Source of the DNA: a virus
DNA length: 24,056 nucleotides
Direction: 5' to 3' (one strand)
Virus record (IMG/VR): IMGVR_UViG_3300005563_000100
Coordinates: 1-24,056 of that record
The notes under the pieces were generated by a model. The model had not been told where the DNA came from, ran no database searches, and was given only the letters and a program-made list of their open reading frames with translations. A program made the translations under genes and the position numbers. The number at the start of each line of letters is the position of its first letter. Position 1 is the first letter of the stretch. Positions 5,183 to 22,111 of the stretch are shown here, piece after piece.

Positions 5183-5332
5183 ATGCCTGACGAATTCGAG
5201 TGGGCCGTCATCGACGGGAGCGGCGCTGTCTGCGGGGTTCGCCGCACCGAAGGCGACGCGCGCGCCCTCGCTCGGATGCTGACTGCCACTTCGCCGCAAC
5301 GCGGGCCCTACACGTGGAAGAGGAACCAATGA
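5183..5332 (+). CDS. Small hypothetical protein, 49 aa
   Basis: The ORF begins MPDEFEWAVIDGSGAVCGVR and continues with a short Ala/Arg helix (DARALARML) to a stop. It is supported by tight packing: 6 bases after the previous stop, and a TGA overlapping the ATG of the VapE gene as ATGA (5329-5332). Its first 12 bases are identical to the starts of the genes at 9006 and 13654. The fold looks like a strand pair plus helix, and the function is unknown. It probably provides translational coupling for the helicase gene. Confidence 0.6.
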   Translation: MPDEFEWAVIDGSGAVCGVRRTEGDARALARMLTATSPQRGPYTWKRNQ

Positions 5333-6630
5333 GCGATCCCATCGACTTGGACAAGGCGCGCGCAAAGAAGTCGAAGGCGAAGCGTTCGGCGCACAACATC
5401 CCCAACACCGAATGGGGGCTCGAGCTCCGGTGCGACCAGGACGGTCGGGTCACGCCCGACGTGGGGAATGCGACCATCATCCTCGCCAATCACCGCGAGT
5501 GGGCCGGCGCGCTCACGTACGACGACTTCGCCGACCGCATCTATTGGTCCGCGGACGCGCCGCGCATCGCCGGCATGGATCGCCCACTCAAGGGCCAGGA
5601 GGTTGCCGACCACCACGCGACGTTCGTCCACCACTGGTTTGCCCGCCGCAAGGGCATCACGCTCAAGAAGGGGGCCGTGCAGGACGCCATGGTGTCGGCC
5701 GCGCGCCTGCGCACCGTGCATCCGCTCCGCGAATACCTGAGCGGGCTCAAATGGGACGGCACCAAGCGCCTCGGCTCGTGGCTCACTGCCTACCTCGGCA
5801 CACCGCTCTCGCGCTACTCGGTCGCGGTCGGCCGCTGGTGGATGATCAGCGCCATCGCGCGCGTCATGCGCCCAGGCTGCCAAGCCGACCACATGCTCGT
5901 GCTCGAGGGCGCCCAGGGCTTGGGCAAGAGCTCGGCGCTGCGAATTCTAGCCGGCGACTTCTACCTGCCGAGCCTCCCGGACATCAAGAACTCGGCCGCC
6001 GGCCACATGCTGCAGGGCAATTGGATTGCCGAAATCGGCGAGCTCGATGCGCTCCGCCGGCAGGAGCTCACGACGGTCAAGGACTTCCTGACGCGCACCG
6101 TCGACAAGTACCGCCCACCCTACGGCCGGTTCCAGGTCACGCGCCCGCGTCAGATGGTGTTCGCCGCGACGACCAACGAGGAGGCCTACTTGCACGACGC
6201 CAGCGGCGGCCGGCGTTTCTGGCCGGTGGTCACGCACAAGCTCGAGAGGGATGCCCTCGAGCGCGACCGCGACCAGCTCTGGGCCGAGGCAAGGGTTGCG
6301 TTCGAAGCGGGCGAGCATTGGTGGCCGAGCGACGAACTCAACCCGGAGATCCGCGAGGAACAGGCGGCGCGCCATGCCAGCGACGAGTGGGAGGGAAAAA
6401 TCGCGGAGTGGGTAGTCGCCAAGGCTCGCACCGGTTTTTCAATCGGCGACGTGCTGCAGAGCTGCATGGGGCTCGACGCTGGGAAATGGACACGAGCCGA
6501 CCAGACGCGAGTCGGTATGTGCCTGAAAGTGCTCGGATACGAGTGGCGCCGGCAGCGTGTAGAAGGTTCCGAACCGACCAAACGCTACTACCCCCTGCGG
6601 CAGCAGCCGTGCTTACCTGGCTCGGAGTAG
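5329..6630 (+). CDS. VapE-family primase/helicase-type ATPase
   Basis: 433 residues with the virulence-associated-E domain found in phage and phage-satellite replication proteins. The family signature HPLREYLSGLKWDGTKRL lies at 131-148. The P-loop GAQGLGKSS is at 194-202, Walker B WIAEIGEL at 232-239, a sensor-like ATTN at 280-283, and the typical GGRRFWPV at 293-300. The C-terminal 80 residues look like a winged-helix DNA-binding module. Family members are thought to act as replicative helicases that load at phage origins. It is the last gene of the early operon, and an AT-rich iteron-bearing region follows its stop, which fits an initiator/helicase next to its origin. The ATG at 5329 is chosen for its ATGA overlap and upstream GAGG. 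Confidence 0.9.
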   Translation: MSDPIDLDKARAKKSKAKRSAHNIPNTEWGLELRCDQDGRVTPDVGNATIILANHREWAGALTYDDFADRIYWSADAPRIAGMDRPLKGQEVADHHATFVHHWFARRKGITLKKGAVQDAMVSAARLRTVHPLREYLSGLKWDGTKRLGSWLTAYLGTPLSRYSVAVGRWWMISAIARVMRPGCQADHMLVLEGAQGLGKSSALRILAGDFYLPSLPDIKNSAAGHMLQGNWIAEIGELDALRRQELTTVKDFLTRTVDKYRPPYGRFQVTRPRQMVFAATTNEEAYLHDASGGRRFWPVVTHKLERDALERDRDQLWAEARVAFEAGEHWWPSDELNPEIREEQAARHASDEWEGKIAEWVVAKARTGFSIGDVLQSCMGLDAGKWTRADQTRVGMCLKVLGYEWRRQRVEGSEPTKRYYPLRQQPCLPGSE

Positions 6631-6853
6631 GTGTGCACCGGATATGTGCCTAGAATCAATCAGGAATATGGTCGCCGTGTACACTGTGCACTCCCAGAAT
6701 CAAATTCCCGAAACCTCTACCGTCTCAACGTCCTGACCTTCTATCTAGTATACACAGGTATACACAGGTATATTATGTATAGTAATAACAATATGTTAGC
6801 CCGTGCGCACCGTGGTTTTCAGGCGGTGCACACAGGTCGACACAGGTAGGCAC
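6631..6853. other. ori: Candidate replication origin: AT-rich island with iterons
   Basis: There is a sharp drop in GC just after the VapE helicase stop; 6741-6799 is roughly three-quarters A/T in an otherwise very GC-rich genome and could be an unwinding element. Around it lie four ACACAGGT repeats, a GTGCACCG/CGGTGCAC inverted pair (6633-6640 and 6824-6831), a GTGTACAC palindrome (6677-6684) and AGAATCAA twice (6652 and 6696). A 72-codon frame crosses the region but reads through the repeats and is not believed. Origin function is inferred from composition, repeats and the adjacent helicase gene. Confidence 0.6.
6752..6847 (+). repeat. Four ACACAGGT iterons in two 10-bp-phased pairs
   Basis: Exact copies lie at 6752-6759, 6762-6769, 6830-6837 and 6840-6847. 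Each pair is spaced 10 bp start to start, about one helical turn, so bound proteins would sit on the same face of the DNA. The AT-rich stretch lies between the pairs. Such iterons usually bind a replication initiator. Confidence 0.7.
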
Positions 6854-6982
6854 ATGCGGGAATTCATGGAGCAGTTGGCAGAGCAGGTCTTGCGAATTCT
6901 TCGAGAGGATTCCGATGTGCGAGCAGTGGTTTTCCGGTCAATGTCACGGAAGTGGTTCCAGTGGCGGGCGACCGCTTACTAA
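6854..6982 (+). CDS. Possible small protein, 42 aa
   Basis: An ORF starting MREFMEQLAEQVLRILRED and ending WRATAY. The first half is a good amphipathic acidic helix; the second half is basic and aromatic (RSMSRKWFQW). An AGGTAGG sequence 3 bases before the ATG could serve as ribosome-binding site but overlaps the last iteron. It is not coupled to neighbours. It could be a small replication modulator or an accident of an intergenic region. Confidence 0.4.
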   Translation: MREFMEQLAEQVLRILREDSDVRAVVFRSMSRKWFQWRATAY

Positions 6983-7281
6983 CCCCTCGCGCGCGCGCGG
7001 GCGCGTATCCCGACGCGGCGGCATCCGCCAGTTGACCACGCTGCCCCAGTGGCTAGCTTGAATATGTGAGCGGCGACGTTCACGGACAGGCCGGAAAGCG
7101 ACGGCAGGTGCTCACCAGGTCGACCAAAGCGACCGAAGACAGCTGGAAAGACAGCCGGAGCAGCAAGGGTAGGAAGTAGGAACCCAAGGTCAGGCAGGCG
7201 CGACGGCGCAGCTAGCGTGTGGTCGGCGAATCAGGCCCACTCCGATGGCTCCGCACCGCAAGGTCCGGGGCCTTTGGCGTC
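6983..7281. other. Region of about 300 bp without a convincing gene
   Basis: It holds an alternating CG tract (about 6988-7005) that could form a hairpin or Z-DNA. A TTGACC hexamer at 7033 lacks a well-spaced -10. A 37-codon basic ORF (GTG 7066 to TAG 7179) contains two AGACAGC repeats and has no good ribosome-binding site. The region separates the replication block from the lipoprotein gene and most likely carries transcription signals for that gene or the late module, but I cannot point to a secure promoter. Confidence 0.4.
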
Positions 7282-20917: not shown

Positions 20918-22111
20918 ATGGCACTGAACGACACGGGTGGATACACGATCGCTCCCGACGCGGGGCCGCTGCCGAAGGTGCAACCGGGCACACCGGGCAT
21001 CCCTGGACAGGCGCCGCTCGGGGCGACCCCGTACAACCCGAACGATTCGAGCACCTGGACGACCGGCGTCGCGCGCCCTGGCGACTCGTTCAACATGAGC
21101 CAGAGCGACCGCAACGCTGCGGTGACATGGGGGCAGGGTCAGAGCGGTGTTCGGCCTTGGGAGAACCGCTCCGCGAGCGCGAACGACACGCGCAACAACT
21201 TCTATTACGGAGGCACGCCGGGCGGCGCGGCCGCGTTCAATGGGCAGGTCTATCAGACCGGACAGGACCTCGGCATGGGGTTCGGCCGCGTCGAAAACAA
21301 CGCCGGCTTCCTGCAAAAGAACGCGCTCGCGAACCAGAGCGACGCGCAGAGCCGTAGCCCAGGAAGGTTCCTGGATCAGTACTCGAGCACCAACAACGCT
21401 CTCGACCGCGGGTATCAACTCGGAGCGATGAATGGGCTCCAAAACTACATCGCGCAGGGGCCCGGGCCGAGCGCCGCGCAGGCGCAACTGAATCTCGCGA
21501 CGAACCAAAACACCGACTCAGCGCTTGCGCTAGCGCGCTCCGGGCGCGGCATGGGCGGCGGAGCCGCGGCTATGCGGCAAGCGGTCGCGCAAAACGCGGT
21601 GACGCAGCAGAACGCGGCTAACCAATCCGCGGTGCTGCGCGCTCAGGAAAACCAGAACTGGCAGCAAAACCAGCTGAACGCCTACAACCAGCTCGGCGGG
21701 ATTTCGGGCAACGCGCGCATGGGTGACGTGCAGCAGGCATCCTACACGAGCGGCACGCAGCAGGCGGCTTCGAACGCGAACGACCAAACAGCGCTCGGCT
21801 ATGGCGCGCAATCGCTCGGCGCGGGCAACCTCGCGCTCGGCGCGAACCAGGGCAACACGTCTGCGCAGCTCGGTTTCGCCGGCCTGCAGAACGACGTGAA
21901 CAAGTCCGCGCTGCAAGGGAACGAGAACTACGAGCAAAACCTGTACAACCTGTACGCGCACAACACGTTCGGCGCGCAGGCCCCACAGGGCACGAATTAC
22001 TCGCCCTATTTTGCTGCTGCTGGCGCCGTGATCGGCACAGCGGTGGGCGGACCCGGCGGCGGCGTCGCCGGCTACGAGGGCGGCAGCGCGCTCGGTTCGG
22101 CGGTGAGCTGA
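20918..22111 (+). CDS. Ejection-type internal virion protein, 397 aa
   Basis: Rich in Asn, Gln, Ala and Gly with long low-complexity helical stretches (AVTQQNAANQSAVLRAQENQ, QNWQQNQLNAYNQLGG). It ends in a glycine-zipper-like hydrophobic segment (AAAGAVIGTAVGGPGGG, about residues 367-383) able to insert in a membrane. This make-up is typical of podovirus ejection proteins that leave the capsid with the DNA and form a conduit across the cell envelope. It starts one base after the nozzle stop and ends in a TGATG overlap with the next ejection-type gene. Confidence 0.65.
   Translation: MALNDTGGYTIAPDAGPLPKVQPGTPGIPGQAPLGATPYNPNDSSTWTTGVARPGDSFNMSQSDRNAAVTWGQGQSGVRPWENRSASANDTRNNFYYGGTPGGAAAFNGQVYQTGQDLGMGFGRVENNAGFLQKNALANQSDAQSRSPGRFLDQYSSTNNALDRGYQLGAMNGLQNYIAQGPGPSAAQAQLNLATNQNTDSALALARSGRGMGGGAAAMRQAVAQNAVTQQNAANQSAVLRAQENQNWQQNQLNAYNQLGGISGNARMGDVQQASYTSGTQQAASNANDQTALGYGAQSLGAGNLALGANQGNTSAQLGFAGLQNDVNKSALQGNENYEQNLYNLYAHNTFGAQAPQGTNYSPYFAAAGAVIGTAVGGPGGGVAGYEGGSALGSAVS

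Follow-up and report, generated by a model that had tools for sequence, protein, structure and literature searches.

The ~225-bp segment that follows the stop codon of a VapE-family helicase gene is very likely the replication origin of the phage that carries it, with VapE serving as its initiator. The window analysed here is the whole 24,056-base stretch of DNA, which is the complete, linear IMG/VR record IMGVR_UViG_3300005563_000100 and is itself probably a fragment. We favor the origin reading because a repeat cluster that is unique in the contig and the weakest duplex of the contig both lie directly 3′ of VapE. An initiator/origin module had been proposed at this position in a sequence-only reading, and that proposal is supported in silico by a conserved layout, concerted change of the repeats, like-placed repeats elsewhere and a fold resembling that of PriRep1.

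Repeats and AT-rich DNA downstream of VapE

The 8-mer ACACAGGT occurs at 6752, 6762, 6830 and 6840, always on the plus strand and nowhere else in the 24-kb contig (0.3 copies expected; none of 100 shuffles reached four). As the sequence-only reading had stated, the exact copies form two pairs (6752/6762 and 6830/6840) with a 10-bp spacing within each, all within 6752-6847. No other 8-mer of the contig has four copies within 110 bp, and any such 8-mer appeared in only one of 300 whole-contig dinucleotide shuffles and in none of 3000 local shuffles. The count of four holds for exact copies, but the array extends further. Degenerate matching, in which CAC was kept and at most two mismatches were allowed, detected RCACAGG-like copies on both strands from ~6635 to 6856, giving 15 matches (some overlapping), whereas other 233-bp windows of the contig have 2.6 on average and 8 at most. 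Exact and weaker copies together amount to about ten sites (6635-6856), the first iteron-like site being ~5 bp and the exact repeats 122 bp from the VapE stop. The left outer sites (6635-6649) are GCACCGG on the plus strand at 6635 and GCACATA on the minus strand at 6643, and the left inner sites (6674-6689, minus strand) are ACACGGC at 6674 and GCACAGT at 6683. The middle pair of ACACAGGT copies (6752-6769, plus strand) is followed by GCACGGG on the minus strand (6800-6806), at the right edge of the AT-rich stretch, and by a right set (6830-6856, plus strand) in which the copies at 6830 and 6840 are joined by GCACATG at 6850 in 10-bp steps. Since the generic 8-mer score of the window (five copies) is matched by 52% of its control windows and is not extreme, the case for the array rests on the exact four-copy, 10-bp pairs and on conservation. 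The helical phasing originally suggested is real in the window as a 10-bp spacing, but it is not a rule of the family, whose members use 8, 9, 10 or 13 bp.

The AT-rich stretch, a probable unwinding element at 6739-6800, begins 109 bp past the VapE stop codon, overlaps the middle pair and contains a GTAAT motif shared with relatives. The earlier description of repeats flanking very AT-rich DNA directly downstream of the helicase gene proved strongly justified: no 50-mer of the contig is lower in GC than 6749-6798 (24%, compared with a lowest value of 40% elsewhere and a contig mean of 65%), and among 60-bp duplexes the least stable is the one beginning at 6739 (-63.5 kcal/mol versus -78.4 for the next elsewhere). 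The two exact iteron pairs stand around this minimum. GC skew along the contig, uninformative as an origin marker, has its cumulative minimum at 961 and a local minimum at 6146 and does not point to the repeat segment.

Several further features of this DNA were observed. An open reading frame at 6631-6849 was rejected as a gene and regarded as a fortuitous open frame; it is not conserved, and the relative L002 has a stop early in the frame. The GTAAT of the window lies in the AT-rich part at 6780-6800, and relatives have GGTAATR followed by an A-rich run, e.g., GGTAATGATAAGAAAA (L002 6440-6465, L003 5265-5290, L004 1055-1080, and also L074). GGTAATR is also seen in Streptococcus phage Javan405 and some other Gram-positive phages and could be a melting or priming element; it was rejected as a general origin element since it recurs in some Gram-positive phages only. 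A short palindromic alternating CG run (CCCCTCGCGCGCGCGCGGGCG) lies at 6983-7003, ~130 bp past the last iteron; a comparable run, CGCGCGCGCGC, follows the array of L002. Elsewhere in the contig, just one further 8-mer forms a tight triple: CGCTCGGC, present three times with 21-bp spacing at 21792-21841, within an open reading frame.

The VapE protein, its relatives and the wing residues

The VapE gene (5329-6630, plus strand) encodes a VapE-family initiator helicase of 433 aa, an identity suggested from the sequence at the outset and confirmed by the PF05272 (VapE-like helicase) profile (E 3.5e-73; 246 bits against a curated cut-off of 25). ATG 5329 is most likely the start, rather than GTG 5200, because the relatives align from there. 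The AlphaFold2 model (mean pLDDT 89.7) contains an ATPase core at about 132-345 and a C-terminal winged helix at about 353-422, with helices at 353-401 and wing strands at 404-422. Its best PDB match, over the full length, is 7pds, which is PriRep1 with dsDNA (E 8e-31, TM about 0.7); the NrS-1, poxvirus E5/D5 and SaPI5 helicases follow far behind. Many relatives seem to have a primase part, but a profile search found no primase domain in the window VapE, so that the host primase or another gene probably does the priming.

We infer DNA binding, melting, loading and actual origin use by analogy, modeled after the published scheme for SaPI Rep and Cch2, in which iterons are bound through the C-terminal domain (PMC7581432). 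The winged helix of VapE would bind RCACAGG iterons in sets to the left and right of the AT-rich stretch, and VapE hexamers would assemble on these two sets. There they would melt the AT-rich stretch (6739-6800), self-load and move outwards as they unwind the DNA.

Three viral contigs (L002, L003 and L004) encode a VapE 72-82% identical to that of the window. No further close relatives were found in the collections searched, a viral scan with the wider alignment added none, and a search of bacterial genomes with the window protein found none. The DNA downstream of VapE in all three aligns with the window across the whole array, and the layout is kept. At 20 columns the window and L002 agree against L003 and L004, and six of these (6637, 6678, 6687, 6754, 6764 and 6804) fall on one and the same base position in six separate iteron copies, a base that changes from A to T on the iteron strand in L003 and L004 (T to A as written at 6678, 6687 and 6804, where the sites are on the minus strand). 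The probability of this placement by chance is 1.3e-6 (hypergeometric, random placement), and by-eye alignment shows a seventh A to T change of this kind at 6832. In L003 and L004, six or seven aligned sites thus go together from CACA to CTCA, and the numbers of RCAC-type and RCTC-type sites are 15 and 0 in the window and 3 and 11 in L003. The iteron sites appear to change as a set while the layout is kept, as expected of the binding sites of one protein. At wing residue 409, VapE has Gln or Ala where the iterons are CACA and Glu where they are CTCA, an association that, with four sequences, can only be a hint.

Arrays after VapE were also seen beyond these close relatives. In the wider VapE set of the window (67 loci, down to about 34% identity, with 300 bp after VapE scored), clusters of at least seven similar 8-mers were present in 22% of loci versus 2% of control windows, and more than half of the loci had no clear array in the 300 bp downstream of VapE. 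The motifs vary by lineage (e.g., CCGTCAC, TCACGACCT, CCCCTGGCA, GTCCCTACC, AGCGTCATG, GTGTATGG), and many loci have repeat sets to the left and right of an AT-rich stretch, often in 8- to 10-bp steps. Among 51 non-redundant loci of a Javan405-like set (49 are relatives of Streptococcus phage Javan405, the other two of Marinobacter phage PS3), clusters of at least six copies were found in 61%, compared with 1% of control windows. Named phages with arrays after VapE are Marinobacter PS3, Paenibacillus Bob, Streptococcus Javan405 and Rhodobacter RcPescado; no array follows VapE in Pseudomonas phage Haddon or podovirus ctHz2215, where VapE is immediately followed, or overlapped, by the next gene.

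Covariation between the wing and the iteron comes from Gram-positive relatives, not from the window's own small family. In this set the wing motif before a conserved lysine tracks the iteron: K-S-G is associated with TGTTCC, K-T-G with TGTGCC, A/S-S-G with TGTTTCC, A/G-T-G with TGTTGCC and A/S-Q with TGTTACC. The rule was fixed in writing before 80 bacterial-genome loci were inspected; of several hundred available loci, the analysis covered the best 80 per scan. Of the 23 scorable held-out loci, many of which are close kin of training loci, 20 fit the rule, compared with 6.8 on average and at most 16 in permutations. Exceptions to the rule are L129, L147, L335, L339 and L345. For pairs at 60-85% helicase-core identity, the iteron class was shared by 139/148 with the same wing dipeptide and by 272/1690 with different wings. 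The proteins of L131 and L145 are 97% identical and differ near the wing (ATG versus SQN), and where one has GTTGCC sites the other has, at nearly all of them, GTTACC. Likewise, the proteins of L102 and L104, almost identical apart from the wing region, have a Ser/Thr difference in the wing, and six sites change from GTTCC to GTGCC in origins that are otherwise very similar. When winged-helix columns were scored one by one against the iteron, wing columns were among the top (phi 0.44 and 0.42, with the best helicase-core columns at 0.39), a result that, taken alone, would still be compatible with shared ancestry. Because the repeat sequence tracks two wing residues and near-identical pairs switch both together, VapE is the probable reader of the repeats.

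A broader proposal seems fairly likely, namely that the wing tip of VapE-family initiators spells the iteron base by base, so that phages could re-target their origins by one or a few substitutions and many mutually independent rep-ori modules would result, the window and its relatives being a further branch (CACA/CTCA). In the part of this code proposed for Gram-positive phages, the base before CC would be T, G or A according to whether one wing position holds Ser, Thr or Gln, and the preceding residue, Lys versus Ala/Ser, would go with TGT-N-CC versus TGTT-N-CC. Thanks to the natural switches of repeat and wing, existing proteins suffice for a direct test of how self-loading helicases recognize an origin, and the switches could yield sets of independent replicons. 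Two VapE modules were observed on one 103-kb contig (IMGVR_UViG_2585428088_000002), L102 and L106, with wings KSG and KTG and with iterons that also differ (GTTCC-rich and TGTGCC), a pattern suggestive of co-resident replicons whose origins are kept apart; a single contig likewise holds the two VapE genes L351/L354.

Other explanations of the repeats

The best surviving alternative, which we nevertheless consider unlikely, is that the repeats are operator sites of a transcriptional regulator (VapE autoregulation or a repressor) and not an origin. Short phased repeats are typical of operators, and those of the window occupy an intergenic stretch. However, no conserved promoter-gene arrangement was seen at their position 3′ of VapE, their placement after VapE recurs in phages with different neighboring genes, and they co-occur with the weakest duplex of the contig. 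The tracking of the VapE wing by the repeat sequence in relatives also speaks against operators. An origin driven by the host initiator, with the repeats as DnaA boxes, is very improbable: GTATACACA differs by one base from TTATACACA, but the TTWTNCACA box is absent from the whole contig, and the sites of L003 and L004 become TACTCA, unlike a DnaA box, while the layout stays. Equally improbable is a packaging (pac/cos) or partition site. Both kinds of site use repeat arrays, and the gene for the terminase large subunit lies ~2.7 kb downstream; against this, arrays are associated with VapE across loci and not with terminase or partition genes, no ParA/ParB-type match was found among the proteins searched, and the segment carries the deepest AT minimum of the contig. 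Chance is the least credible explanation, for although two-copy short repeats commonly arise in this way in an AT-rich intergenic stretch, the shuffles described above and the concerted change of the repeats in relatives speak strongly against it.

The carrier phage and known replicons

The gene order of the contig is an integrase, small early genes including one for an ERCC4-type nuclease, VapE, and then virion genes, namely the terminase large subunit, an SU10-like portal and adaptor, a head protein and an internal virion protein. Judged by these predicted genes, the carrier is a tailed, podovirus-like phage, probably temperate; PICI satellites are without a full virion gene set of their own, and the virion genes of this contig rule out satellite status. 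The ERCC4-type nuclease (2171-2659; PF02732, phrog_3490) is a possible recombination partner in the early region. Within the 3′ portion of the integrase gene, positions 970-1015 read on the minus strand resemble a tRNA 3′ half, with TTCGTAA as anticodon loop and TTCGAATC as T-loop; this could be an attP core inside that gene. ARAGORN found no full tRNA, including at 970-1015, and no tRNA genes or RNA families were found in the window.

Taken by its sequence and predicted fold, the module is a SaPI/PICI-type rep-ori replicon residing in an ordinary tailed phage. The PICI rep-ori modules, for which plasmid tests are published, provide the precedent for layout and function (PMC6092414). As in SaPIbov1, SaPI1 and EcCICFT073, the putative origin of the window lies immediately 3′ of the initiator helicase gene, with iteron pairs around an AT minimum, and the initiator has a C-terminal DNA-binding domain, predicted here by AlphaFold2 as a winged helix (PMC6092414, PMC7581432). 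SaPI/PICI elements are satellites, whereas the phage that holds the window module has terminase, portal-like and head genes of its own; the window VapE also is without a fused primase, and the iteron sequence differs. Cch2 of SCCmec, which has a putative origin with AAGTG iterons, similarly binds short iterons just downstream of its own gene via its C-terminal domain (PMC7581432), but it belongs to a different helicase subfamily and its origin has only three iterons. PriRep1 of a staphylococcal SaPI (7pds), a helicase of the VapE type, has the same full-length fold as the window VapE and is distant in sequence (about 25% identity).

Closer in setting are Marinobacter PS3, Paenibacillus Bob and Streptococcus Javan405, in which a VapE-family helicase gene is followed by an iteron array and AT-rich DNA as in the window, although their iterons have other sequences and their proteins are longer (about 730-790 aa). 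Noncoding origins have been described downstream of primase-helicase genes in Streptococcus thermophilus phages, and the use of such an origin by a phage may not be new as such. That such a module is present in a tailed phage, and also behind the VapE genes of many phages with diverse hosts, points to a common phage replicon that satellites share.
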